Shown here piece by piece: positions 1,035 to 47,966 of a stretch of DNA of 64,000 nt. The notes below the pieces were generated by a model, which made no database searches, was not told the DNA's origin, and saw only the letters and a list, made by a program, of their open reading frames with translations. Position 1 is the first letter of the stretch. Each line of letters starts with the position of its first letter. This DNA is from Lentibacillus sp. JNUCC-1. Its GTDB lineage: Bacteria > Bacillota > Bacilli > Bacillales > Amphibacillaceae. Made by a program: the position numbers and the translations under genes. The stretch covers positions 310,001 through 374,000 of the forward strand of contig NZ_WHOH01000001.1 of assembly GCF_009741735.1 (NCBI RefSeq), in the 5' to 3' direction.

Positions 1035-1198
1035 GAAAATCACAATGTAATAAAATTGACACAAAGAAGCATGAAGCAAGAGGTTCATACAAGCATACAA
1101 ATTTTAGCTCTTTTTTTGATTTCCACATTCATTTGATACATGGTAAGATTATAGGAGATATAGAAACTACAAGAGAGCTTATTATAGGGGGAATGAGA

Positions 1199-1893
1199 AT
1201 GGATAAAGATACTGTCAGAGCGCTCTTACAATCATTTCGAATTTTTAAAGGGTTAACGGATATTGAAATGGAGCCCATTTTAGATATTACTAAAAACCGT
1301 ACTTTTCGTTCAGGTGCACACATTTTCATGCAAGATGACCCTTTGACAAATGTCTATTTCATTCACCAGGGCAAGGTCAAAATATACCGGACAGACATTC
1401 ATGGGAAAGAACAGATTATTAATATGCTACAGCCAGGGACATGTTTCCCCATCAAGGCTTCTTCCGAAAAGACAATTATCCTGCCCACGCAGAAGTCGCT
1501 GAGGATGCCAACTTGCTTTATATCCCAATTAGCCAATTCGAAAACTTCCTCATTACACACCCCGAAATTTGTATTAAGTTGTTCAGGGTGCTGGGAGAAT
1601 TAATCGTAGACTTACAAACACGGCTTGAAGAAAAAATTCTGCATACCACAACCGAACAAATTATCAAGCTGCTCTTGCGATTGTCCCAGAGTCACGGGGA
1701 AAAACGCCCGGACGATTTAATCAGAGTTACGACGTTGTTCACAAATCGTGAACTTGCCAATATGATCGGATCAAGCCGTGAAACAGTCAGCCGTACCTTA
1801 ACCCAACTTAAGAAAAAGAAACTTATTGCTTCAGATCAAAACGGTCATATGTTAATTAATTTTGAAGAACTCCATAAGGAAATTATTATTTAA
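1199..1893 (+). CDS. Crp/Fnr family transcription regulator (frameshifted in this sequence)
   Basis: Two overlapping frames make one protein of about 231 residues. The first carries the N-terminal cNMP-type beta-roll to INMLQPG; the second resumes at MFPHQGFFRKDNYPAHAEV and carries the rest of the sensor domain, the dimerisation helix and the helix-turn-helix NRELANMIGSSRETVSRTL. One G appears missing in GGGAC near 1437-1439. The recognition helix RETVSR is typical of regulators that bind TGTGA-type sites. I see no four-cysteine Fe-S cluster motif as in Fnr, so the signal (redox, NO, metabolite) is unknown. Start ATG 1199 is chosen because GGGGG ends 7 nt upstream; ATG 1193 would be too close. 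Confidence 0.85.
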
Positions 1894-1899
1894 TAAAAC

Positions 1900-2054
1900 A
1901 AAAGCGGAAACGCCGTGGTCACCCCCGAAAATCATAAACAAGAATGTGTCGTGGCGAACTTGCCACGAAACGTTCTTGTTTATGACTCAAGGGGTAGGCG
2001 TTGGAGCTGGACGTGGCCCTTGGCAATGTTCGTTAACAGCTCGGGTATTTTATA
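1900..2054. repeat. R2 dispersed stem-loop repeat, copy 1
   Basis: This is a 155-bp imperfect palindrome following the regulator. The outer arms AAGCGGAAACGCC and GGCGTTGG enclose a long stem (AATCATAAACAAGAA with TTCTTGTTTATGACT) capped by GTGGC/GCCAC. A second copy lies at 45411-45564 with compensated differences in the stem. No coding potential was found. Confidence 0.75.
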
Positions 2055-2069
2055 GTTTGCTAAGCAATG

Positions 2070-2105
2070 AAAAAAGTGCCGATCTGTTCTGATAGGCACT
2101 TTTTG
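2070..2105. terminator. Bidirectional terminator between regulator and moaD
   Basis: AAAAGTGCC and GGCACTTTT form a stem flanked by A and T runs. It can serve the regulator on the plus strand and moaD on the minus strand. Confidence 0.75.
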
Positions 2106-2127
2106 TTATTACTTTATCAAGTTGGGC

Positions 2128-2364
2128 TCATCCTCCGCTGACTGGGGGGATGAATGCCACTGTATCATTGTCCTGAACCGTAATATTGTCGCTTGCATAC
2201 TCTTCATTAACAGCTACCATCACATGATTGATGTGATTGATGTTATACGTTGATAAAACATGATTCTTCAATTCCTCGACTGTCATCCCAGCAGCATCAA
2301 GCTCTATTTCGTGTCTCCCGACTGCCTCTTGCAAACCTGCAAAAAACAATACATTAACCATCAT
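2128..2364 (-). CDS. moaD: Molybdopterin synthase small subunit MoaD
   Basis: This 78-residue ubiquitin-fold protein ends in PPVSGG; the C-terminal Gly-Gly is thiocarboxylated and delivers sulfur to precursor Z in molybdopterin synthesis. It pairs with MoaE, encoded immediately upstream. Its start overlaps the moaE 3' end by 11 bp, and GGAGG lies 6 nt before ATG 2364, so coupled translation is likely. ATG 2361 is an alternative. Confidence 0.9.
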   Translation of the reverse strand: MMVNVLFFAGLQEAVGRHEIELDAAGMTVEELKNHVLSTYNINHINHVMVAVNEEYASDNITVQDNDTVAFIPPVSGG

Positions 2365-2827
2365 ACATCGCCTCCTCTGATGGTACGCCCTGACGATATG
2401 AAACCTGTTCCTTTTGATCACCCATCCACTTGGTGCCATCAGCCCAGTTTTCTTTTTTCCAAATAGGGACGATCTCCTTAATACGCTCGATCGCATAACT
2501 GCTGGCCTCAAATGCATCTTTCCGATGAGGTGTTGAAACAGCTATGGCGACTGCCACGTCTGAAATTTCCAGACGACCAGTACGATGGACAATCGCTGTC
2601 TGAACGTCTCCCCACCGTTCTTCAATCTCACGGCCAATCTCAGCCAGCTTCTTTTCGGCCATCGGTTTATACGCTTGGTATTCCAGGAAAAGAGTCTGTT
2701 TCCCACGGGTGAATTCCCGGACAATACCTGTAAAAACATTGACTGCACCCGCTTCAGGCCGTGTTACTTTATTGATAACATCTTGTACATCTATCGTGTC
2801 TTCAGTAATCCAAAAGTTTTTCTCCAT
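2354..2827 (-). CDS. moaE: Molybdopterin synthase catalytic subunit MoaE
   Basis: At 157 residues it has family length. VFTGIVREFTRGK near residue 31 and the later stretch HRTGRLEISDVAVAIAVS with HRKDAF are MoaE hallmarks around the active-site lysine and arginine pocket. With MoaD it converts precursor Z to molybdopterin in the cytoplasm. AAAGGAG precedes the start codon, and the gene begins 12 bp after the mobB stop. A mobB-moaE-moaD operon is therefore likely. Confidence 0.93.
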   Translation of the reverse strand: MEKNFWITEDTIDVQDVINKVTRPEAGAVNVFTGIVREFTRGKQTLFLEYQAYKPMAEKKLAEIGREIEERWGDVQTAIVHRTGRLEISDVAVAIAVSTPHRKDAFEASSYAIERIKEIVPIWKKENWADGTKWMGDQKEQVSYRQGVPSEEAMYDG

Positions 2828-2838
2828 ATGCGCTCCTT

Positions 2839-3369
2839 TTATAGCTTGAAGCGATCAAGCAGATGTGCGACAAGATCAGGAAGCACCTTATCAAGATCTT
2901 CAAGCAAAAACGTAAAAGCATGATGATCAGGCATTAAATGATGGTCTCGCAGTCCCACAGCATGAATCTGATCAATATCGTTCAATAGTCCGAAATCAGC
3001 TTCCTCTCTAAGCAGGACAATTTTGGGAAAGGAAGCATTTTTATAGCCCTCCAATATGAGAATGTCATGAGAAACAGTCTGATACATGGTTTTGATTTGT
3101 TCCCAAGTGAGCTCGGTTTTACTGGCAACCGTAAGCTGCAGTTCACCATCACCTTCCACACCGCTGATTACGGCGCCGGCCTGACGATGTTTGTCACTGT
3201 CGGTACCGCTGGCACGATCAGGTTTGCCGCCATGCCCATGATGCTTTAATGTGGCTACTTTATATCCTGCTTTGGTTAAATAAGCAACCAGTGCTGATGT
3301 AACCGTTGTTTTGCCGGAATTTTTATAGCCCACTACTTGAAAAATAGGAAAATCGTCTCTCGCACTCAT
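2839..3369 (-). CDS. mobB: Molybdopterin-guanine dinucleotide biosynthesis adaptor MobB
   Basis: The P-loop GYKNSGKTT near the N-terminus, followed by ATLKHHGHGG and the aspartate-rich GTDSDKHRQAGA, is diagnostic of the MobB GTPase that assists MobA in forming the guanine dinucleotide cofactor. With the start at ATG 3369 it is 176 residues, close to the usual size. AGAGG lies 7 nt upstream of this ATG; the in-frame ATG at 3375 is only 1 nt from the ribosome site. MobB suggests an MGD-type molybdoenzyme, such as a nitrate reductase or formate dehydrogenase, elsewhere in the genome. Confidence 0.9.
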   Translation of the reverse strand: MSARDDFPIFQVVGYKNSGKTTVTSALVAYLTKAGYKVATLKHHGHGGKPDRASGTDSDKHRQAGAVISGVEGDGELQLTVASKTELTWEQIKTMYQTVSHDILILEGYKNASFPKIVLLREEADFGLLNDIDQIHAVGLRDHHLMPDHHAFTFLLEDLDKVLPDLVAHLLDRFKL

Positions 3370-3408
3370 ACACATGCCTCTCTCACCCAAAATCGTGTGC
3401 ACATAAAT

Positions 3409-3443
3409 TAAAAAGGCTGATTCATGAATGATGAACCAGCCTT
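3409..3443 (-). terminator. Terminator after yitW
   Basis: On the minus strand AGAAGGCTGGTTCAT pairs with ATGAATCAGCCTTTTT, leaving a T run. It separates yitW transcription from mobB. Confidence 0.75.
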
Positions 3444-3452
3444 CTGTCTGCA

Positions 3453-3764
3453 TTAATCCGGAATGCCGAGTGCAATTTTGGCATATCGAGACATTTTATC
3501 CTTACCCCAAGGCGGGTTCCAGACGATATTGACTTCGATTTCTTTGATATCCGGAATGTCGGACAACGCCCGGCGTACATCCTGCTCAATATGCCCAGCG
3601 AGCGGACAACCCATGGATGTTAGTGTCATTGTCACAACACATAACCCATTCTCATCTAATTCAACATCATATATAAGGCCCAAATTGACAATGTCAATGC
3701 CAAGCTCAGGGTCAATCACATTTTCCAGTGCCCCAAGCATATTTTCCTTTAACGCTTCATCCAT
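3453..3764 (-). CDS. yitW: MIP18/DUF59 family Fe-S assembly factor (YitW-like)
   Basis: This 103-residue protein has the DUF59 signature VIDPELGIDIVNLGLIYDV and TSMGCPLAGHIEQDV with its single conserved cysteine. The family (SufT, PaaD, yeast Cia2) helps insert Fe-S clusters into target enzymes. GGGAGGTCG stands before ATG 3764, which is why this start is preferred to the upstream in-frame one. The neighbours yitV and yitU match the B. subtilis yitUVW locus. A partial Crp/Fnr-like site lies upstream at 3824-3839. Confidence 0.88.
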   Translation of the reverse strand: MDEALKENMLGALENVIDPELGIDIVNLGLIYDVELDENGLCVVTMTLTSMGCPLAGHIEQDVRRALSDIPDIKEIEVNIVWNPPWGKDKMSRYAKIALGIPD

Positions 3765-4758: not shown

Positions 4759-5598
4759 ATGAATACAAAACAGCATATTATTGCACTTGATTTGGATGGA
4801 ACTTTTTTAACAGATGATAAAAACATAAGTATCAAAAATCAAACTGTGGCCCAGAAAGCAATCGATGCCGGGCATATTGTTGTGATCGCAACCGGGCGGC
4901 CGCACCGTGCAAGTATTGATTACTACAATATGCTTCAATTAAATACACCTATGGTCAATTTTAACGGGGCGCTGATTCATCACCCACGCGACAAAAAATG
5001 GGACGCACTGCATAACCCGATGCCTGTTAGAACTGCCCGCGCGGTAGTGGAAGCTGCAAATGATTTTAATGTGCGTAACATTATTGCAGAAGTTCAGGAT
5101 CACGTTTATCTTGATCGAAGCGATGAGGCAGTGATGAACATATTTAAACAGACGCGTCAAGACAGTCCGTTTACCATAGGCAGTCTGAAAAACAATTTAA
5201 ACACCGATCCGACCTCTCTCTTGATTCATCCGAGAGAAGATCACATCAATCGTTTAAGGGCACATCTTGACGATTTTCATGCAGAAGTGATTGAGCACCG
5301 GAAATGGGGCGCTCCATGGAACATCATTGAAATTGTAAAAAAAGGCATTAATAAAGCAGTCGGACTTCATAAACTGGCTCATTATTATGATATCCCTCCC
5401 GAGCGAATTATTGCGTTTGGTGACGAGGATAATGATCTGGAAATGATTGATTATGCTGGCGTTGGAGTCGCGATGGGGAATGCTATTGACGAATTAAAAT
5501 CACTTGCCAAACATGTAACTGAAACGAATGAAGAAGACGGCGTAGGAAAATTCCTTGAAGCATATTTAAAATTGGATCTTTCCTCCCCAGCTAAATAA
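4759..5598 (+). CDS. yitU: Cof-type HAD phosphatase (YitU-like)
   Basis: HAD motif I is ALDLDGTFLTDD at the N-terminus, motif II is IATGRP, motif III is the lysine in KKGINKAVGL, and motif IV is AFGDEDNDLEM. This is a Cof/type IIB HAD phosphatase of 279 residues acting on small phosphorylated metabolites; some homologues act on FMN precursors. ATG 4759 follows AGGTGAGG with good spacing; an in-frame GTG at 4750 would extend it by three residues. Confidence 0.88.
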   Translation: MNTKQHIIALDLDGTFLTDDKNISIKNQTVAQKAIDAGHIVVIATGRPHRASIDYYNMLQLNTPMVNFNGALIHHPRDKKWDALHNPMPVRTARAVVEAANDFNVRNIIAEVQDHVYLDRSDEAVMNIFKQTRQDSPFTIGSLKNNLNTDPTSLLIHPREDHINRLRAHLDDFHAEVIEHRKWGAPWNIIEIVKKGINKAVGLHKLAHYYDIPPERIIAFGDEDNDLEMIDYAGVGVAMGNAIDELKSLAKHVTETNEEDGVGKFLEAYLKLDLSSPAK

Positions 5599-5745
5599 CC
5601 GGAAATTTCCACCCATATATTTAATTGGAGTATCCATACTAGGAGTGAGCGCAAAAAAGCGTTCACTTTTTTACTTCCGGTTATGCATCATGTTCACCTA
5701 TTACAGATGCTCTTCGTCAAGAGGATCTGCCTGGAGGAATCGCCG

Positions 5746-5895
5746 ATGGCCAAGAATAACAAGTCCAGACGATTCGTGTACCAAGGTGCTGAGGGTGTCA
5801 AACAGCATGCAGAACGATTTCCGTATCGCTCCCGCTTCTCCGATAAGGAGCGAAAGGAAGCTGAAGCTGACAACCATACGACAGGAGGGTTTTAA
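5746..5895 (+). CDS. Small basic hypothetical protein (49 aa)
   Basis: GGAGG lies 8 nt before ATG 5746. The product is 49 residues, rich in Arg, Lys, Glu and His, with no membrane segment. Its stop codon abuts the ATG of the next gene, so the two are probably co-translated. I do not recognise the family; size and composition resemble small spore-type proteins, but this is only a guess. Confidence 0.55.
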   Translation: MAKNNKSRRFVYQGAEGVKQHAERFPYRSRFSDKERKEAEADNHTTGGF

Positions 5896-6081
5896 ATGGA
5901 AAACAATTATCTCCAAAAAGCCAAGAATGCTATGAATCAGTTCATGCAAAACAATGATGAACAATCACAGCGAGCTGCTCAAAATGCCATTCAATCGGCT
6001 TATAATGAAGCCACACCTGAAGAACAACAGCAGCTGCAACAGCTTGAGCAGCAATTAAAGGAGAGCAATCAGTTAAAATAA
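5896..6081 (+). CDS. Small Gln-rich protein, DUF3813-like
   Basis: The 61-residue protein has a helical, glutamine-rich composition: LQKAKNAMNQFM, then TPEEQQQLQQLEQQL. It resembles the DUF3813 family found beside yitU-type genes in Bacillus. GGAGGG precedes the ATG, which directly follows the stop codon of the upstream small gene. Function is unknown. Confidence 0.65.
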   Translation: MENNYLQKAKNAMNQFMQNNDEQSQRAAQNAIQSAYNEATPEEQQQLQQLEQQLKESNQLK

Positions 6082-6108
6082 CCTCCCAAGTTGGAAGCTC
6101 AACCAACA

Positions 6109-6146
6109 AACGGATCGGAGCACCCCCCGTGCCCCGATCCGTTTTC
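6109..6146 (+). terminator. Terminator after the small-protein pair
   Basis: AACGGATCGG and CCGATCCGTT form a 10-bp stem followed by TTT. Confidence 0.8.
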
Positions 6147-6149
6147 CTG

Positions 6150-6633
6150 TGTCCAGTTCCCGTAAACTGCGACGTAAAAGAAATACCCATATATTTTTGT
6201 AAGAGGAACGCGATCTGCGCTGCGGACAGTCGCTTTCCGCGGACACGGCCTCAGTCTCCTCGCTCGCAAAGAACGCTCACTGCGGGGTCTTCGGACTCGT
6301 GCTATTCCCGCAGGAGTCAACTGTCCTCCGCTCCGATCACTCTATTTTCTTTAGCGGCTTGGACGGCTCTGCACACAAAAGCAAAAAGGCATGAATACTC
6401 ACACCCAGCTCGGGGAAAACACGGAGACTCCTGTGGGAGCAAAAGCCTAGATGAGACCCCGGAGCGCGCATTTGGGGAAGGAAGGCTAAGAACGCGACAT
6501 CCTGTCGCAACGCCTTCATGACCCACGTCCTGTGGGCCCGAGGCTCATCAGCGCCCACTGGACGCGGAGTGTTTTCCCCGAGCGGTTGCCAGTGGCAGTT
6601 ATTTAGAGTTTTCACTGGTTCGCAGTTTGTGTC
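6150..6633. repeat. R1 composite palindromic repeat, copy 1
   Basis: This fills the gap between the small genes and the Nfu-N gene. It has two fold-back modules: one with GAGTCAACTG and CCGCGGACACGGCC arms (module B), one with CTCGGGGAAAACAC and GTGTTTTCCCCGAG arms (module A). The right end TTCGCAGTTTGTGTC is a conserved terminal sequence; the left end is degenerate. A two-hairpin submodule (6481-6536) is embedded in module A. There is no credible ORF. Confidence 0.8.
6481..6536 (+). repeat. Two-hairpin submodule of R1 (instance i)
   Basis: The outer stem is GAAGGC/GCCTTC around inner hairpin GCGAC-ATCCT-GTCGC, followed by hairpin CCCAC-GTCCT-GTGGG. Other instances (16221-16276, 62074 onward, 62144-62199) keep the architecture with different stem sequences. 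Confidence 0.6.
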
Positions 6634-6747
6634 TATTGTGACCTAGAGGGGGTTTTATTTATGGGGTTTGTCATTTTACTTTTTTACGATGGGGATATCT
6701 GCTATGATAAGGGCAGTTGATAAAGATTCTAATTGGAGGGGATAGTG

Positions 6748-23909: not shown

Positions 23910-24470
23910 TTATTCATAATCTGCAGGATCGATGAAAAGCATTTGTGCGAGATACACCAGTATGGCAGCGCCCATTGTAATATAGCCCCATCCCAATGTG
24001 ACCTGTTCGATCTGGAGATAGTTATTGCACAACTGCACCGGGGAAAAAATGTACAAAGCACCCATCGCAGCAAATGATACCAGAAAAAAGATAAATACCA
24101 TATTCTTCGCTGCTTTTCCCAATTTTGTCCAACTGTCACGAAGCGGAACCCCAGCCAAAAATGGTAAACTGACAAACTTAAAGATTTCCATAACAGACAG
24201 TGTTAATGCTTCGTCCATAGTCCGCGGCACCATCCAGTACAGCATAATAATTAAGAACAAAACAATGCCGGGAATGCCATTCCTGTTATACTTGGAGAAA
24301 ACGGCAGGGCATTTTTTCTGAAACCATGGGGCTATTAAAAATCCGGCAATGACAAAGAGCGGCATTTGCATATGCATATGAATGATCATAATAGATTCCA
24401 GCAATTCCGCTACTGGAGGAAGCATGAGAAACACCCACATCGCTAATCCAACTTTGACTTGTGTCATCAT
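23910..24470 (-). CDS. DUF1404-like membrane protein linked to SCO
   Basis: This 186-residue protein has about five hydrophobic helices and a His/Met-rich turn, IIHMHMQMPLFV, that could bind copper or heme. It resembles the DUF1404 family often seen near terminal oxidases. Its ATG overlaps the SCO stop by 4 bp, so it is co-translated with a copper-delivery protein. A role in oxidase assembly is inferred from position. Confidence 0.65.
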   Translation of the reverse strand: MMTQVKVGLAMWVFLMLPPVAELLESIMIIHMHMQMPLFVIAGFLIAPWFQKKCPAVFSKYNRNGIPGIVLFLIIMLYWMVPRTMDEALTLSVMEIFKFVSLPFLAGVPLRDSWTKLGKAAKNMVFIFFLVSFAAMGALYIFSPVQLCNNYLQIEQVTLGWGYITMGAAILVYLAQMLFIDPADYE

Positions 24471-25102
24471 ACATCACCACCCTTTTCCTCCAAAATAGTT
24501 CGGATGGTTTCAGCGGCAGCTTCCGGCTGTTTGTAATCCATAACATTTTCCAGACGTCCTTCAGGGTTTACCAGGTAAAAGGCTGAGTTATGAGTGAAAT
24601 TACCATTATCATCCGGTATAACGATCACACCAAAAGCATCTAAAAGACTATTAAGTTCTTCCTGATCATTAATTCTGGCCATTCGCCATGTTTCACCGTC
24701 ACTGTCAAAATAACCTCTGTACGTTGACAGAGTTTCGGGTGTATCCTGTTCGGGATCAAAACTGACACTCAAAAACACAATGTCCTCTCCCAAAACATCC
24801 TCAGGTAATGCCTGGTATACTTCAGACATGTTCATTTCAAGCTGTGGACATACATCGGTACATGCGGTATATATGAATGTAATCAGCACATATTTCCCCG
24901 CAAATTCGGAAAAAGGATAGACACGCTCTTGGCTGTCTTCCAGTGTCACTTCCGGAAACACAGGCTGACTGTCGATCAAATTGTGTTTACGCGCTGTTTC
25001 CGCTGTGAAAGCACTGAACCCGTCCGTTCCGATGAAAAACAATAAAAAACCAAACAACAGAACCAGTCCAAGCGCCACCTTACTTTCCTTTCCCTTCAAC
25101 AT
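24467..25102 (-). CDS. SCO family copper chaperone for CuA assembly
   Basis: The 211-residue product has an N-terminal membrane anchor (residues 8-28) and a thioredoxin-like outer domain. TACTDVCPQLE gives the CxxxC copper-binding motif and NFTHNSAFYLV the histidine ligand. SCO proteins deliver copper to, or reduce, the CuA centre of oxidase subunit II. AAGGAAGTGG stands before ATG 25102; an in-frame GTG lies 9 nt upstream. It follows the CuA oxidase operon after a terminator. Confidence 0.9.
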   Translation of the reverse strand: MLKGKESKVALGLVLLFGFLLFFIGTDGFSAFTAETARKHNLIDSQPVFPEVTLEDSQERVYPFSEFAGKYVLITFIYTACTDVCPQLEMNMSEVYQALPEDVLGEDIVFLSVSFDPEQDTPETLSTYRGYFDSDGETWRMARINDQEELNSLLDAFGVIVIPDDNGNFTHNSAFYLVNPEGRLENVMDYKQPEAAAETIRTILEEKGGDV

Positions 25103-25176
25103 ACCGACCACTTCCTTTATAAAAAAGCTCTAAACGTTTGAGTCAGATCTAAAATGCATAGAATTTAAAAATGATG

Positions 25177-25222
25177 AAAGAACAGCCACAGCCGGGATTG
25201 CTTGGGCTTTTGGCTGTTCTTG
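25177..25222 (-). terminator. Terminator after heme-copper subunit I
   Basis: AAGAACAGCCA and TGGCTGTTCTT pair around a long loop, separating the reductase operon from the SCO gene. Confidence 0.6.
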
Positions 25223-25232
25223 TTTTTTATGA

Positions 25233-26918
25233 TTACCAAGTTTTAAATGGTGGTGATCCTGGAGGTGCATTGCCGATAAAGTCGACGAGCGGAATCACGT
25301 AGCCCATTGCAACGACGATCAACATAATGAAGATCCAGCGTGTCCAGCGCTCTGTCCAGAATGGTGTTTTCGACGCACTTTCTTCTGGCTCTGCAATCGG
25401 GAATTCTTCTTGCCCTTTTGGCGCACGGAACATGAGGTGAAAAACAGCGTATACCTGCATGATGACACCAATGATTAACAGTGTGCCGCCAATAGCAAGG
25501 AAGATCAAATATGGATCCCAGCCTAAAGCTGTGGCATGGTCACCATACGTTGAGAATGATGTCCGTCTTGGAGAGCCCAGCAGGCCAACAAGGTGCATTG
25601 CGATTGACATCGTGGACATACCCACGGTCCAGATAATTGTCTGAATGACACCGAATTTATTCATTTTAGGTGTGAGAATCCGTCCTGACACATATGGAAC
25701 GAGCCAGTAACTCATGCCGAAGAAGGTCATAACAGCTGTCATTCCAAGTGTTAGGTGAAAGTGTCCAACAATCCACATGGTGTTATGAACGACCTGGTCC
25801 AGCTGGTTCATTGTCTGAACCACACCGCCAGCACCAGCAGGGATGAAAGCGATCATGGCAATCATTGGTGCCAAGAAACGCACGTCGCCCCAAGGCAGTT
25901 TCTTAAACCAGCCAAACAGTCCTTTAGCGCCTTTTTTGCGACCAGTTTTTTCAAACACGGAAAACATAGCATATGCAGTCATCAGTGAAGGGAAACCAAT
26001 TGCCAAACTCATGAACACGTGAAGGAATTTGACTGTTTCCGAAATGCCGGGGTCCACGATCTGGTGGTGGAAACCTCCCGGTATATTCAAGATTACAAGC
26101 AGGATTACGACAAGCCGAGTGAGTAAGTCACTGAAACGTCTCCCTCCCATAATTTTAGGTACAATAACATACCAGGCGGAGACAGCTGTTAAATACCAGA
26201 TATTTACCAAAGTGTGACCAAATGCCCAGAACAAAGTCCGGCTCAACATGACGTTGATCGTATCAACCCAGCCAAATGACCAAGGAATAATCAGACCGAT
26301 CACTTCAATGGCAACAGGCAGACTTCCGAAGAACAACAGTATAAATACACCAGTTGCAAAGAACGATAGAATCGGAATGTGTTTACCTTTATTTTGTTTG
26401 CGCCAATGAGCAACATTGATAAAGGCTCCGAATGCACACATCCAAACACCTACTACAATCAAAGCCAAGCCAACATAAAACCAGGGTGAAGCGGCCATTG
26501 GCGGATAAAAAGTATACATAACAGATGCTTCGTTCATCAGAATTGGGATAAGAGCCATGACGAACCCAACAATTTTAAGACCGAAACCGATCCAAGCCAT
26601 TGTCCGAACTTCAGCTAAAAGCCCTCCAAGAGTATGTGATAATGCAGCGTAAAAATATCCAATTGTAAAGAACGATGTAAAGACCAGTACTAAGAATAAG
26701 CCGTGTGCTGTCAAAATCTGATAATAATTCATCCAGGTTGGCAATTCCAGCAGACCTGCTCTATTCAGCCCCTGTAAAAGCCCAAGAAAACCACCGACAA
26801 GCAAAGCGAGAAAGGTTACGATAAAATAAGTTCTGGAAATACGTGCGTCTTTCTCGTTGATTCCTAATACACGATTGGTTTTTTCCATGATTGTGTTTTG
26901 CTTTAATACAGCTTCCAT
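25233..26918 (-). CDS. Heme-copper reductase subunit I, B-family (ba3 oxidase or CuA-type NO reductase)
   Basis: This 561-residue, roughly 13-helix protein carries the heme and CuB ligands: LTAHGLFL (low-spin heme), FGHTLVNIW (CuB His), GGFHHQIVDPG (two CuB His) and VGHFHLTLG (high- and low-spin heme His). In B-family oxygen reductases such as Thermus ba3 the first CuB His is followed four residues later by the cross-linked Tyr (GHPIVY); here that residue is Asn. The K-channel Tyr seven residues on is also changed (to Val). Loss of the Tyr is a feature of NO-reducing relatives such as the CuA-type NOR of Bacillus azotoformans. GGAGG precedes ATG 26918. Oxygen versus NO as substrate is not settled by sequence alone. 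Confidence 0.85.
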   Translation of the reverse strand: MEAVLKQNTIMEKTNRVLGINEKDARISRTYFIVTFLALLVGGFLGLLQGLNRAGLLELPTWMNYYQILTAHGLFLVLVFTSFFTIGYFYAALSHTLGGLLAEVRTMAWIGFGLKIVGFVMALIPILMNEASVMYTFYPPMAASPWFYVGLALIVVGVWMCAFGAFINVAHWRKQNKGKHIPILSFFATGVFILLFFGSLPVAIEVIGLIIPWSFGWVDTINVMLSRTLFWAFGHTLVNIWYLTAVSAWYVIVPKIMGGRRFSDLLTRLVVILLVILNIPGGFHHQIVDPGISETVKFLHVFMSLAIGFPSLMTAYAMFSVFEKTGRKKGAKGLFGWFKKLPWGDVRFLAPMIAMIAFIPAGAGGVVQTMNQLDQVVHNTMWIVGHFHLTLGMTAVMTFFGMSYWLVPYVSGRILTPKMNKFGVIQTIIWTVGMSTMSIAMHLVGLLGSPRRTSFSTYGDHATALGWDPYLIFLAIGGTLLIIGVIMQVYAVFHLMFRAPKGQEEFPIAEPEESASKTPFWTERWTRWIFIMLIVVAMGYVIPLVDFIGNAPPGSPPFKTW

Positions 26919-26932
26919 CTGTTCTCCCTCCT

Positions 26933-27394
26933 TTATTTCACCTTAATGGTTGTGCTCATGGCCTGGTGGCCGGCACCACAATATTCGTTACATAGAACTA
27001 GATAATCTCCCGGTTTGTCAAACTTCTGGGTAATTTTTTGAACATAACCTGGCATTACCATGGCATTAATGTTTGTACCTGCTACTTGGAACCCGTGAAC
27101 AACATCTTTTGATGTCATTGTAAAGTGAACAGTTGATCCGGCCGGAATTTCTATATCTGTTGGCGTAAAGCTGAATATTTGCAGAGTCATGACGACTTCA
27201 TATTCGTTTTCACCAATTTTTTTAACGCCGGGATTGTCAAAAGGGGCTGTTTCATCCACCTTTTCCGGATCCAGTGTTTCCTGATGACTTGGTGGCCCCA
27301 TTTCGAGTGCAAAAGCCTGATAACCGATAAAAAACATAAATCCTAATATCATAAGACTGCTCGCGATCAGCCAAAACTTTTCATAGCGATGCAT
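26933..27394 (-). CDS. CuA-containing subunit II
   Basis: The 153-residue product has one N-terminal membrane helix (residues 8-28) and a cupredoxin domain. CNEYCGAGHQAM supplies the two Cys, His and Met ligands of CuA, and DVVHGFQVAG the other His. It accepts electrons from cytochrome c or quinol and passes them to subunit I, encoded 14 bp downstream. GGAGG precedes the start. Confidence 0.92.
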   Translation of the reverse strand: MHRYEKFWLIASSLMILGFMFFIGYQAFALEMGPPSHQETLDPEKVDETAPFDNPGVKKIGENEYEVVMTLQIFSFTPTDIEIPAGSTVHFTMTSKDVVHGFQVAGTNINAMVMPGYVQKITQKFDKPGDYLVLCNEYCGAGHQAMSTTIKVK

Positions 27395-27427
27395 AAGTGC
27401 TTCCTCCTTTTTATAAGCAGATGTCTG

Positions 27428-27574
27428 TTAAACTCTCATCATATAAATGCCCCAAATCGCAAACCACAGAAGTGCAATAAAGCCACCTATAAGCAGTACT
27501 GAAACCAATGTGCCTTTCATGGAAACCTCTTCATGGTCTGTATGTGCCATCTCTGTCTTCTTTGGAGAAGTCAT
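27428..27574 (-). CDS. Small single-helix subunit IIa-like protein
   Basis: With the start at ATG 27574 (after AGGGTGAGCGGG) it is 48 residues: a polar N-terminus and one membrane helix, LVSVLLIGGFIALLWFAIWG, near residues 26-45. It is the first gene of the operon, ahead of subunits II and I, and resembles the short IIa subunit of ba3-type oxidases. Confidence 0.75.
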   Translation of the reverse strand: MTSPKKTEMAHTDHEEVSMKGTLVSVLLIGGFIALLWFAIWGIYMMRV

Positions 27575-27633: not shown

Positions 27634-27649
27634 AGTGAAGCAAATCACG
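27634..27649 (-). promoter_or_regulatory. Crp/Fnr-type site, proximal, CuA reductase operon
   Basis: AGTGAAGCAAATCACG matches TGTGA-N6-TCACA at 8 of 10 half-site positions. Its centre is 23 bp from the perfect site. Confidence 0.55.
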
Positions 27650-27656
27650 CCCCTAG

Positions 27657-27672
27657 TGTGATTCAAATCACA
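27657..27672 (-). promoter_or_regulatory. Crp/Fnr-type operator, perfect palindrome, CuA reductase operon
   Basis: TGTGATTCAAATCACA is a perfect TGTGA-N6-TCACA site, 82 bp upstream of the first start codon. Confidence 0.8.
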
Positions 27673-43098: not shown

Positions 43099-45336
43099 TC
43101 AAGTAAATCTTTTTTCAATTTGATCAGGAGGCATCGGCTTTCCGAATAGGTAGCCTTGACCAATGAGATTATTGTCTGAATTAAGTGAACGGACTTGTGT
43201 TTCTTGTTCAATTCCCTCAACAACAACTCCCAAATTCAAATTCTCTCCGATATCAATCATGGATTTTACAAGAGAATATCTTTTTGAAGAGGATAGGTCA
43301 TCTATAAAAGCTTTATCGATTTTAATTGTATCGATTGGCAGACTCTCCAGGATGAATAAAGATGAATAACCTGTTCCGAAATCATCAATCGCCACTTTGA
43401 CACCTAACCCATGTAATTGATTAAGGATGTTCCTGGATGCACTTAATGACTGCATAATACTCTCTGTAATCTCAATTTCAAGGTACATTGGATTTAAACC
43501 GGTTTTCTTTAAAATCCTGTCGAGACTTTTCACAAAGTTACTATGCTGAAACTGCCGTACAGAAACATTGACTGAAACGCACATCTCGGGATAACCAGCC
43601 TCTTGCCACGCCTTGTTTTGTCTGCAGACTTCCTCAAGGGCCCATTCGCCAATCGGAATAATCTGACCGGTTTCTTCAGCAACAGGGATAAATTCACCTG
43701 GTGATACGGATCCCAGTTCCGGGTGTTCCCACCGCATGAGAGCTTCCATCCCGATCATTTGTCTTGTATCCAAGATGACCTTAGGTTGGTACACCATACG
43801 AAGTCTGTTATGAGCAATTGCCTGCCCAAGACCGGATTCGATTTTAAATTTACGAATATGGGCCTGCTGAAGCTGTTCATTATAGATGTGTATATGATTG
43901 CCCTCATCCCTTTTTGCAGCAAACATCGCCGCGTCAGCTTGTTTCAACAATGTTTCACTTGTACGGCCATGTTCCGGGTATACACTGACTCCGATGCTTG
44001 GCACAACTGAAATTTCATATTCCTTTACAGTGATGGGCTCCACAAAACGGGCCATAATCTTTTGGGCTACCTGGAGGCAATACTGTTTTGTTCCGTTTGG
44101 AAGTATCGTTACAAACTCATCCCCGCCAAAACGATATAATCTATCGTCTTCACCGAGGCTCTGCTCAATCCGTTGGGCAACATTGTTTAACAACACATCT
44201 CCCATATCATGGCCCAAAGAATCATTGACGTCCTTAAACCTGTCCAAATCAATCATAAAAATACAGACGTTTAAGTCCAGTCGATAGGCTCTCTCCATAT
44301 AAAATTCCATGTCATATTGGAATCGGTTGCGGTTGTTTAGCGATGTTAAAGGATCTTGGAATGCTTTCGCACGATATTCTTTAATGAGATCACGATTTTG
44401 TTTAATCACAAGCATCTGTCTGATCATAATTAGGATAAAAACAATACCAAGACCGACTCCGAGTGCGCTTGTGTGCAATTCGTTTTCATAAATATAAAAA
44501 GCAAGAAGGCCAAAAACGGCCACATATGGCAAAAGTGTATCTTTATCGTGAAAATATTGGGGTGGTTGCCATTCATTGGAGACCTTCAGTTTTTTATAGC
44601 AAAGCCCGGCATAACCAATTAACAAAATTGAAAGCACCCAGAGCGGATCGAGCATACTCCCTGAATCGTATAGATTGTAGGTATTCAACGAGACATAAAC
44701 AGAATCAGGTACAAATTGCACCACAATAGCACATACATAAACGTAAAACCATGTCTTCCTATCCTTTGGAGAAGTAAGATGAAAGATATGGATTAATGCA
44801 AATACTAACGCCAAATCTAAAATTGGATGCGCAACTTGAAGAATTTCATAAACAAGAGAATCATCTGACCAAGTGAACAACGGTTGTATCAAATAATGGA
44901 TCGTAATAGCTGCAGCAGCTGTCATGAAGATGGCAATATTAAAGTAAAACCGATTTTTTGTTGTGTTTCTTTGTAAAATGTAAAGTAAGTATAGTAAGCC
45001 TCCAAGAAAAAAAGTCGGTGCCAACAACCAAGTCACATGAGCCATCCCGGGATAATAATCAATTTTGTACATGACCTGCCATGAAAGCCACGCAATATTT
45101 GAAATCGAATAGGCAATAACACCCCATAACGTCCAGCGCCAGAAAATATGTTCAATTCGCTTTCTTGACGATCGATAAGCACCCCATACCCACTGAAGCG
45201 CGAGCAGTCCTCCTGCAATAGGAAACATAGAAGCGGTAAATTGACGTAGAATTGTTTCTCCGCTAAATATAATTGTTGCGATATAGTAAACAATCATAAA
45301 AAAAACGATCATCCATCTCGCTTGTAACAACCCCAT
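43099..45336 (-). CDS. Membrane GGDEF-EAL c-di-GMP protein
   Basis: The 745-residue product has about nine N-terminal membrane helices (residues 5-310), then a GGDEF domain (DPLTSLNNRNRF, RFGGDEFV near 413) and an EAL domain (GMEALMRWEHP, ESIMQ, DDFGTGYSS, EGIEQ, QGYLFGKP). Both active-site motifs are intact, so both cyclase and phosphodiesterase activity are possible. The inhibitory RxxD site five residues before GGDEF is absent (GEDD there). The membrane part probably senses an unknown signal. Confidence 0.9.
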   Translation of the reverse strand: MGLLQARWMIVFFMIVYYIATIIFSGETILRQFTASMFPIAGGLLALQWVWGAYRSSRKRIEHIFWRWTLWGVIAYSISNIAWLSWQVMYKIDYYPGMAHVTWLLAPTFFLGGLLYLLYILQRNTTKNRFYFNIAIFMTAAAAITIHYLIQPLFTWSDDSLVYEILQVAHPILDLALVFALIHIFHLTSPKDRKTWFYVYVCAIVVQFVPDSVYVSLNTYNLYDSGSMLDPLWVLSILLIGYAGLCYKKLKVSNEWQPPQYFHDKDTLLPYVAVFGLLAFYIYENELHTSALGVGLGIVFILIMIRQMLVIKQNRDLIKEYRAKAFQDPLTSLNNRNRFQYDMEFYMERAYRLDLNVCIFMIDLDRFKDVNDSLGHDMGDVLLNNVAQRIEQSLGEDDRLYRFGGDEFVTILPNGTKQYCLQVAQKIMARFVEPITVKEYEISVVPSIGVSVYPEHGRTSETLLKQADAAMFAAKRDEGNHIHIYNEQLQQAHIRKFKIESGLGQAIAHNRLRMVYQPKVILDTRQMIGMEALMRWEHPELGSVSPGEFIPVAEETGQIIPIGEWALEEVCRQNKAWQEAGYPEMCVSVNVSVRQFQHSNFVKSLDRILKKTGLNPMYLEIEITESIMQSLSASRNILNQLHGLGVKVAIDDFGTGYSSLFILESLPIDTIKIDKAFIDDLSSSKRYSLVKSMIDIGENLNLGVVVEGIEQETQVRSLNSDNNLIGQGYLFGKPMPPDQIEKRFT

Positions 45337-45410
45337 AAAAACCCTCTCTTCAAACCGCGTATTACTTAACTTTTCCCGTATTTCTTAAATACAATCCACA
45401 AAAAGTGAAC

Positions 45411-45564
45411 AAAAGCGGAAACGCCTTGGTCATCCTCGAAAATCATAAGCAAGAACGTGTAGTGCCGGTCTGGCCACGTAACGTTATTGCTTATGACTCG
45501 AGGGGATAGGCGTTGGGCTGGACGTGGCCCTTGCCAATGGATATTAACTGCTCGGATATTTTAT
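45411..45564. repeat. R2 dispersed stem-loop repeat, copy 2
   Basis: Same architecture as 1900-2054. The stem reads AATCATAAGCAA with TTGCTTATGACT, an A-T to G-C pair exchange relative to copy 1. It lies between the GGDEF-EAL promoter region and the hemY terminator; nothing else is seen in this 290-bp gap. Confidence 0.75.
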
Positions 45565-45578
45565 TTCTAAGCAACAAA

Positions 45579-45619
45579 ATAGCTCCAGGCACGCTTTAAA
45601 ACGTATCCTGGAGCTTTTT
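45579..45619 (-). terminator. Terminator after hemY
   Basis: AGCTCCAGG and CCTGGAGCT form the stem, with ACG/CGT inside it. Confidence 0.75.
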
Positions 45620-45627
45620 CAGATGTA

Positions 45628-47028
45628 CTAACGCAAGAAGTCCAGCACACGCTGAGCAGCTGCTTCTCCTTGGGCAATGCAATCCGGCACACCGATGCCT
45701 TCATATGAACTGCCAGCAAGCATCACGCCTGGCAGCTTGACTTCCATTTGTTCGCGGACGCCCTCCAGCCGTTCCTTATGTCCGACTGTATATTGCGGCA
45801 TCGCATTTTTCCAGCGGGTGATCACTGAAAATTCAGGATCGGCTTTAATATCCATCGTTTTATTCAGGTCCTTCATAACAATGTCAATGATTTCTTCATC
45901 TGACAAGTCCACAGCCTGCTGATCATCTGGCCGCCCCACATAGCAACGGACAAGCGCTTTTCCGTCTGGAGCAGCGTGCGGCCATTTTTTATGTGTCCAT
46001 GTGACTGCGGTGATACGGTAGTCACTATTGCGGGAAATAACAAATCCAGTGCCGTCAATGTCCTGCTTAATGTCTGACTCATCAAATGCTAAAGCAACAT
46101 TGGCAACAGATGTGGATGGCACATCGTTAAACGCTTTGAAAAAATCATACTGACTGAATACATTCGGCAAGGTATAATGTGGGCTTGCCATAACAACAGC
46201 GTCTGCTTTTAACACCTCAGCGTTGTCGAGCAGAATATGATAGCCATAAGGCTTCTTTTCGATATGATCTACCGCTGTATCCGTAAATGGAATCTCATCA
46301 CCTAACGCTTCAACGAGCCTTTCAATCATAGACTCCAAGCCGCCTTTGAACGAAAAGAACATACCTGGTTTCTTTCCTTTGCTTTTCTTTCGTTTCGGCA
46401 TCGTCTTCTGAAGCCCTTTAATCAAGCTGCCATATTCCTGTTCCAACTTATAGAAGTTCGGAAACGTCGCCATGAGGCTCATCTTGTCAATATCTCCGGC
46501 ATAAATACCGGAAAGTAGCGGTTCAACAAGGCTTTCAACAAGCTCATCTCCAAAACGATGTCTGAAAAAGCCACCCAGTGACTGGTCTGTCTGAGGTTTT
46601 GATTTCGGTTTAACCAGATCCATTCCAGCTTTCAGTTTACCGCGCTTGGAGAATATACCTGAAAACAGAAACGGCTTTATTTGTGTCGGAATCCCCATAA
46701 ATGCACCTTGTGGCATTTTATGCAGTTGATCATGAGTCATAATATAGGACTGTCCTGTGCCGTTACGCACCAATTCGTTTTCCATGCCAAGTGCTTCAGC
46801 GAGCTTAACCGCTGGCTGTTTACGAGCAAGAAAGGAATCAGGACCGCGTTCAATTGTGAAGCCATCACGTCTGAGTGTGCGAATTTTGCCCCCAAAACGG
46901 GAGCTTGCTTCTACAAGTTTCACATCGTAAGGCAGTGATGCTGTTTCAATATGCTGTTTTAAATAATAAGCAGTCGTGAGCCCTGTAATGCCTCCACCGA
47001 CGATAACAATTTGCTTGTGTTGTGTCAT
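45628..47028 (-). CDS. hemY: Protoporphyrinogen/coproporphyrinogen oxidase HemY
   Basis: The FAD-binding motif VGGGITGLTTAYYL opens the 466-residue protein; RFGGKIRTLRRDGFTIERGPDSF and the C-terminal SYEGIGVPDCIAQGEAA are HemY signatures. In Firmicutes it oxidises coproporphyrinogen III to coproporphyrin III. It is the last gene of hemEHY. ATG 47028 overlaps the hemH stop by one base; a GTG at 47031 has slightly better spacing to GAGG and is an alternative start. Confidence 0.92.
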   Translation of the reverse strand: MTQHKQIVIVGGGITGLTTAYYLKQHIETASLPYDVKLVEASSRFGGKIRTLRRDGFTIERGPDSFLARKQPAVKLAEALGMENELVRNGTGQSYIMTHDQLHKMPQGAFMGIPTQIKPFLFSGIFSKRGKLKAGMDLVKPKSKPQTDQSLGGFFRHRFGDELVESLVEPLLSGIYAGDIDKMSLMATFPNFYKLEQEYGSLIKGLQKTMPKRKKSKGKKPGMFFSFKGGLESMIERLVEALGDEIPFTDTAVDHIEKKPYGYHILLDNAEVLKADAVVMASPHYTLPNVFSQYDFFKAFNDVPSTSVANVALAFDESDIKQDIDGTGFVISRNSDYRITAVTWTHKKWPHAAPDGKALVRCYVGRPDDQQAVDLSDEEIIDIVMKDLNKTMDIKADPEFSVITRWKNAMPQYTVGHKERLEGVREQMEVKLPGVMLAGSSYEGIGVPDCIAQGEAAAQRVLDFLR

Positions 47029-47966
47029 CACACATCAAGCCTCAGTTTATTCATGACAACCTCTGCCAAGGTGTTAATAAATTGGGGTTTGCTATTGGGC
47101 ATTTCAGGCCGGTAATAGCTTGCTCCAATGTCATCACATACTACTTTGCACTCATAATCGTTGTCATAGAGCACTTCCAAGTGATCAGCAACAAAGCCAA
47201 CAGGCGCATAAACAAAAGTGGTATAGCCTTTATGTTCAAATAAATCACGGGTTAAATCCTGCACGTCTGGTCCAATCCATGGATCAGGTGTATTCCCTTC
47301 GCTTTGCCAACCGATTTCATAGTCCGTAATGCCAGTAGCTTCGGAAATAAGCCGAGCTGTTTCATTAAGCTGTTCAGGGTAGGGGTCTCCACCTGCGAGA
47401 ATTTTCTCAGGAAGACTATGAGCAGATACAACCAGAACGGCTTTTTCACGTTCTGCGTCGGTCATTTTGGCATAGGTATCGTTGATTGCATCAGCCCAAT
47501 ATTTAATAAAGCCTGGAGCATCATACCAGCTTTCAACAGATTGAATGGCTAGTCCGCCATGTTCTTCCGCGGCCTCATTGGCGCGTTGGTTATAAGATTT
47601 CACGCTGAACGTGGAATAATGCGGTGCCAGCACAATGGATACAGCTTCTTTAATGCCATCTTTAGCCATTTCTGCTACGGCGTCTTCTATAAAAGGCTCA
47701 ATATGCTTCAAGCCGATATAAGCTTTGAATTCATACGTATCCTGAATCTCATTTAACCTGTTTTCAAGCGCTTCTGTTTGTTGTTTCGTGATTTTCGCAA
47801 GGGGCGAAATGCCGCCGATTGCTTTATAGCGTTCTGTCAGATCATCCAATGCTTCTTTGGACGGTTTGCGGCCGTGACGGATATGTGTGTAATAGCGTTC
47901 AATATCTTCTTCTTTGTATGGAGTCCCATAGGCCATAACAAGCAGTCCGATTTTCTTTTTTTCCAT
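47028..47966 (-). CDS. hemH: Ferrochelatase (coproporphyrin ferrochelatase) HemH
   Basis: The 312-residue product starts [20 protein letters not shown] and contains the catalytic region [12 protein letters not shown] (His) and [19 protein letters not shown]; the latter is the family signature. It inserts iron into coproporphyrin III in the Gram-positive pathway. AGAGGTG lies 6 nt before ATG 47966. Confidence 0.93.

Follow-up and report, generated by a model that had tools for sequence, protein, structure and literature searches.

A five-gene operon of Lentibacillus sp. JNUCC-1 very probably encoding a CuA-type nitric oxide reductase (bNOR), with a conserved Fnr-type site upstream

The window analysed here is a stretch of 64,000 nucleotides (64 kb) from Lentibacillus sp. 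JNUCC-1. On its minus strand, at 23910-27574, lies an operon of five genes, which encode a small peptide, subunit II and subunit I of a heme-copper enzyme, an SCO/SenC protein and a membrane protein. The features are as follows, in the direction of transcription.

27657..27672, minus strand: TGTGA-N6-TCACA palindrome of the Fnr/Crp type, 82 bases upstream of the small-peptide gene
27634..27649, minus strand: second, weaker site with two mismatches, alone not beyond chance
27428..27574, minus strand: cbaC-like small membrane peptide, 48 aa, assigned by a place and size like those of cbaC1
26933..27394, minus strand: cbaB, subunit II, 153 aa, CuA electron entry (PDB match to ba3 subunit II, E 1.6e-33)
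25233..26918, minus strand: cbaA, subunit I, 561 aa, the catalytic subunit, assigned by the COX1 and ba3 matches, residues and tree; a low-spin heme, a high-spin heme and CuB are assigned to it as cofactors
24467..25111, minus strand: senC/SCO copper chaperone, 214 aa, GTG start (Pfam SCO1-SenC, E 2.5e-22)
23910..24470, minus strand: cbaD-like membrane protein, 186 aa, assigned by downstream conservation and by a place and size like those of cbaD1

The original prediction had been limited to 25233..27574. The two subunits within that span stand, but the span itself was too short: because the SCO/SenC gene, the 186-aa protein and the separate small-peptide gene all belong to the unit, it is now drawn as 23910-27574. 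Spacing and conservation suggest that all five genes would be carried on one transcript.

Subunit I matches Pfam COX1 with an E value of 6.8e-82, and its best solved relative in a PDB search was the Thermus thermophilus ba3 oxidase (E 3.5e-98). No NCBIfam model scored above its cut-off for subunit I; the weak oxidase matches lay far under cut-off, and the enzyme could not be named from them. Alignment with the Thermus enzyme recovered all six ligand histidines, namely H72, H386, H388, H235, H284 and H285 of the window protein, which correspond in this order to Thermus H72, H384, H386, H233, H282 and H283. The complete set of heme and CuB histidines claimed earlier was thus confirmed. Asn239 falls in the column of the cross-linking Tyr237 of Thermus ba3, again as predicted, and Asn was also found there in all 80 named relatives that were fetched, a count that is not circular, because peptide patterns from other parts of the protein had served to fetch these loci and in each of them the Asn motif was seen in the ORF covering the match. 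Throughout the heme-copper superfamily, this Tyr has an established role in O2 splitting. Val246 falls in the column of Thermus Tyr244, in line with the predicted change of a K-channel Tyr to Val, and Thermus Y248, S309 and T312 are all retained; we take these residues to be members of the K-path under their usual Thermus numbering.

The CuA site of subunit II is complete (H100, C135, E137, C139, H143 and M146). Strict CuA patterns undercounted this site among the relatives (0, then 66 of 80), and the alignment recovered the ligands in all 81 subunits II, i.e., the window and 80 of 80 relatives, which bears out the full CuA site that had been read from the window. Glu5 of subunit II is aligned with the K-path entry Glu of Thermus ba3, presumably Glu15(II), and the position is Glu in the window and all 80 relatives. 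A subunit II gene was present in each of the 75 relatives with enough sequence. Downstream, SCO and CbaD-like genes were found in 78 of the 79 relatives with enough sequence, the sole exception being L048, where neither was seen. The CbaD-like protein has no match in Pfam or NCBIfam, and the same is true of the first 38 aa of the small membrane peptide. A loose finder reported a short hydrophobic ORF in 73 of 75 relative loci, several of them evidently in the wrong frame, and the assignment of the small peptide is therefore based on its place and size in the window.

Comparison of the aligned rows parted two kinds of subunit I, and the Asn-bearing rows are called bNOR here. All 110 distinct bNOR rows, chosen by their active-site pattern, have Asn at the Tyr237 column together with the six ligand His. 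Their Tyr244 column holds Val, Ile, Thr or Leu, and Tyr in none. Meanwhile, the ba3-type rows carry Tyr at both columns in 26 of 26 cases, likewise with all six ligand His; these rows were chosen by the Tyr pattern, which was matched by every one of the 20 genes that had been fetched by place from same-family genomes. The Thermus 234 column is Thr in all 110 bNOR rows versus Pro or Ala in ba3, and F187, T236, Y242, N278, G281, M303 and S304 are further window positions that part the two kinds well. The 110 bNOR rows comprise the window, 80 named relatives (the best 80 of 330 confirmed by scan) and 29 of 31 rows from same-family genomes, identical rows having been removed.

A survey of 120 same-family genomes, the window's own included, gave a full-length match at an identity of at least 64% in 45 of them. 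The active site was read in 32 of these 45 matches (the window and 31 others), and it contained Asn in all. Below 64%, the matches fall to 45-52% identity, and all 20 that were fetched carry Tyr. The sole other same-genus genome among the 120 had no match to subunit I.

The original prediction had proposed a tree as its check. A quick maximum-likelihood tree was computed from 86 of 154 distinct rows, with the bNOR rows thinned and SH-aLRT as the only support measure; B. bataviensis cbaA1 was taken in as the published member, and B. azotoformans itself was left out. The 44 bNOR rows, window included, form one clade with a support of 100, which also includes the gene of Neobacillus (Bacillus) bataviensis LMG 21833 (L007). 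Joined by 22 Tyr-type ba3 rows (20 of them from same-family genomes, one the genome's own and one from a plasmid of Geobacillus stearothermophilus), these 44 rows make up a 66-row group, also supported at 100, in which the Tyr-type rows of Bacilli are the neighbours of bNOR. This group stands apart from the ba3 oxidases of Thermus, Deinococcus and haloarchaea in a tree whose long outer branches are unsurely placed according to the program's warning; the bNOR clade is independent of them. A separate deep clade, again with a support of 100, is formed by 11 sNOR-type rows, the genome's own copy and that of Ruegeria pomeroyi among them. The window protein hence shares an Asn clade with B. bataviensis cbaA1, stands apart from both the Tyr-type ba3 oxidases and sNOR, and is not among oxygen reductases that also bear Asn, the place that had been named as speaking against the prediction: all 26 ba3-type rows have Tyr. 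As Tyr is present in the rows nearest to bNOR, and sNOR is distant in the tree, the Asn of bNOR and that of sNOR were probably gained separately.

Two rows, L177 and L176, were kept out of the tree, the former because the wrong ORF had been chosen and the latter because it is without the expected H-F-H motif. When L177 was re-read from its annotated coordinates, Tyr was found at the catalytic place. L176 (1321-3006, Thermus thermophilus plasmid, annotated as cytochrome oxidase) has Gln at the catalytic Tyr and Lys at the aligned His388 heme-ligand place. The same substitution, Gln for the catalytic Tyr as in eNOR, was also observed in L181 (1195-2925, Thermomicrobium roseum), another gene annotated as cytochrome oxidase. 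It should be further pointed out that L030, a 7,986-base bNOR contig labelled Pseudomonas sp. ISL-84, is near-identical to Cytobacillus genes in the tree, and that this label is probably a mislabel or contamination. In Mesobacillus maritimus (L074), an sNOR-type gene (2038-3522, minus strand) and a bNOR subunit I gene (4983-6683, plus strand) lie about 1.5 kb apart.

Within the 64 kb, TGTGA-N6-TCACA has a single exact match, at 27657-27672, and palindromes of this type are, as we presume, the Fnr site of Bacilli. Crp/Fnr-type sites in the plural had been predicted before the operon, and besides the exact one there is a two-mismatch site at 27634-27649. The motif in the form [T/A]GTGA-N6-TCAC[A/T] was found in 59 of the 75 relatives whose upstream sequence was long enough, a figure that expresses conservation and is not a p-value, as related species are not independent. 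The second, two-mismatch site is not beyond chance; with two mismatches allowed, 32 matches were counted in the window against a mean of 36.7 in shuffles, so this site means little alone. In those 59 relatives, the motif precedes the subunit II start, as estimated, by 224-268 bases, and on the same measure the far end of the exact palindrome in the window lies 278 bases before that start. The other 16 of the 75 relatives were without an Fnr-type site in the stretch searched. As controls, a stretch of equal length within subunit I and another further upstream both gave 0 of 75, and shuffled sequences contained a mean of 0.1 sites and at most 1.

From this motif only, we infer control of the operon by Fnr. 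HcpR, a regulator of the CRP/FNR family, has the same form of site, similar to the E. coli CRP consensus, according to the available part of PMC1274295. The word Fnr does not occur in the available text of the qCuANOR paper (PMC3475470). Elsewhere in the window, a Crp/Fnr-family regulator is encoded at 1133-1893 (plus strand) in two overlapping frames; a one-mismatch Fnr-type palindrome lies upstream of it at 1019-1034, and it adjoins MoaD-, MoaE- and MobB-like molybdenum cofactor genes, named by reading.

The genome around the window was then considered. A PF00115 search gave six places, window gene included. The others are aa3-type quinol oxidase-like and caa3-like genes (names by reading), a Tyr-type ba3 gene at C3:1287543-1289173, in two frames, and a second Asn-type heme-copper gene of the sNOR kind at C3:134936-136237 (L004), with its own CuA subunit. 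No qNOR was among the six places, the sensitivity of PF00115 to qNOR being assumed. The sixth place, under the PF00115 cut-off, is a COX1-like piece at C1:1427281-1427541 (L169 2264-2674), a short membrane protein with a 137-aa open frame. narG scored over its cut-off at C1:522857-526518 and reads in two frames, and a nirK-like gene under cut-off at C3:622242-623056 reads in two pieces. nosZ was not found: its model gave four matches in the genome, all under cut-off and confined to the CuA-type domain at the C-terminal end of the model, and these four lie at the subunit II genes beside heme-copper genes. An Fnr-type regulator with a C-terminal CxxCxxxxC adjoins nar, and we take this tail to be the mark of Bacillus Fnr.

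Since narG and the nirK-like gene both read in two frames in this assembly, NO production by the strain itself is not certain. The several two-frame respiratory genes in this 3-contig assembly suggest decay or base errors. If they are whole in life, nitrate would, on the genes found, be reduced to N2O and no further. Because the genome holds sNOR-type and Tyr-type ba3 paralogues, bNOR need not be the main NO sink.

Taken together, the operon is very probably a CuA-type nitric oxide reductase of Bacilli (qCuANOR or CuANOR, now bNOR), as judged from its sequence. The tree and the five-gene order thus support the candidate CuA-type NO reductase of the original prediction and place it in the CuANOR/bNOR family. 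Its NO reduction, type of heme, electron donors and electrogenicity would carry over by analogy with the enzyme of B. azotoformans. Electrons from a membrane cytochrome c, or perhaps menaquinol, would arrive at CuA of subunit II and go via heme b of subunit I to the heme b3-CuB site, where 2 NO + 2 e- + 2 H+ -> N2O + H2O would take place. The site would suit NO chemistry because Asn replaces the Tyr that would cross-link the CuB His and help to split O2. The protons would probably be of cytoplasmic origin and travel along the lower part of the former K-path (Glu5 of subunit II, Tyr250, Thr314 and Ser311), and with this cytoplasmic uptake the reaction would help to make the membrane potential. 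SCO/SenC would load the copper, and Fnr would switch the operon on when oxygen is short.

That the enzyme is instead a ba3-type oxygen reductase working without the cross-linked Tyr is highly improbable. Its ligands and CuA subunit are common to ba3 oxidases, and its identity to the Tyr-type ba3 genes found in same-family genomes is 45-52%, but the two Tyr of all 26 ba3 rows are replaced by Asn and by residues other than Tyr in all 110 bNOR rows, a ba3 gene of the Tyr type, albeit one in two frames in this assembly, is already present in the genome, and the family has a purified NO-reducing member in the available text of PMC3475470 and PMC5826923. Still less probable is membership of the sNOR family. 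All 11 sNOR rows do have Asn at the Tyr237 place, and PMC3475470 labels the type I cluster 'qCuANOR, sNOR' in the part available; however, those rows lack Ser309 and form a deep clade that excludes the window protein, which is 30% identical to the genome's own sNOR, over residues 219-505. This distinction is partly a matter of naming, and as PMC11388526 says 'formerly CuANOR' in its available part, type I would be the bNOR of that paper.

A third alternative is compatible with the family and concerns the role only: bNOR might mainly detoxify NO from other organisms or from low-oxygen nitrate ammonification, rather than serve denitrification. The two-frame reading of narG and of the nirK-like gene in this assembly and the failure to find nosZ in the genome fit such a role, and NO reduction in microoxic settings has been suggested in the available text of PMC11388526. 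We regard it as possible but rather unlikely, given that the Fnr-type site, the electrogenic chemistry of the family and the nar and nirK genes of the strain are in keeping with a respiratory function. For the respiratory bNOR, we tentatively propose, with confidence a little short of even, a wider picture. The bNOR operon of Bacilli may belong to the core of the Fnr regulon, switched on by oxygen shortage through a box whose distance hardly varies; as neither qNOR nor nosZ was found in this strain, bNOR and sNOR may here be the sole heme-copper NO reductases, with bNOR an energy-conserving, N2O-releasing respiratory enzyme whose Asn arose separately from that of sNOR. The conserved Fnr-type site gives a testable claim on when the enzyme is made, and the locus adds a well-placed bNOR case and a list of residues that part bNOR from ba3 oxidases. 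The original prediction expected automatic annotation to call the enzyme a ba3 oxygen reductase, which is one of its less firm points. According to the available part of PMC11388526, bNOR bears the KEGG label coxA, and because such genes are readily labelled cytochrome oxidases, the N2O-forming capacity of Gram-positives is undercounted.

Among known systems, eNOR is a B-family NO reductase in which the Tyr is also replaced, by Gln versus Asn in the window, and Glu at this place marks cNOR and qNOR in a table (both from the available text of PMC8756737). Identity with eNOR was ruled out by Asn239 instead of Gln, and with qNOR or cNOR by Asn239 instead of Glu. The ba3 oxygen reductases (Thermus thermophilus, Geobacillus b(o/a)3 and the genome's own) share the ligand His, CuA, the entry Glu, Tyr248, Thr312 and Ser309 with the window enzyme, but bear Tyr237 and Tyr244, which are absent from bNOR. 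sNOR, as in Ruegeria pomeroyi and the genome's own copy, shares the B-family frame, a CuA subunit and Asn at the Tyr237 place; it differs in the loss of Ser309, a shorter subunit I and its separate deep clade. The genome's own sNOR operon has a CbaD-like partner with 86 of 184 residues identical to that of the window; an SCO gene is present in the Ruegeria sNOR operon, but none was seen near the genome's own sNOR (plus strand, 3.8 kb). The available part of PMC3475470 describes subunit II of sNOR (qCuANOR type II) as two-helix.

bNOR has to date been found in Bacillota only, in 123 of 433 Bacillota genomes carrying Nor or Nos, as stated in the available text of PMC11388526. The B. bataviensis cluster, of qCuANOR type I, is given at contig02 43748-47384 by PMC3475470 in its available part, and L007 (contig range 40070-51737) spans it at the place of cbaA1, whose product is 77% identical to the window subunit I. 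A ctaB gene lies beside that cluster, whereas none was seen beside the window operon among neighbouring ORFs named by reading.

The closest likeness is to B. azotoformans, whose purified qCuANOR was tied to the cluster cbaC1-cbaB1-cbaA1-senC1-cbaD1 (138, 462, 1707, 636 and 570 bp) in 2012 (PMC3475470, available text). The window genes have the same order, with 147, 462, 1686, 645 and 561 bp, and a small peptide of 48 aa compared with the 46 aa of cbaC1. The Tyr-to-Asn change was already pointed out in that enzyme (PMC3475470), and the window enzyme resembles it in this change, in a CuA subunit II of 462 bp and in its SCO and CbaD partners. The B. azotoformans enzyme reduces NO to N2O with cytochrome c551 as donor (PMC3475470, PMC5826923), its NO reduction is electrogenic, and its K-path analogue has been conserved in many features (available part of PMC5826923). 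As gene order, Tyr-to-Asn change and enzyme properties are already published, the window operon is an ordinary member of a described family.
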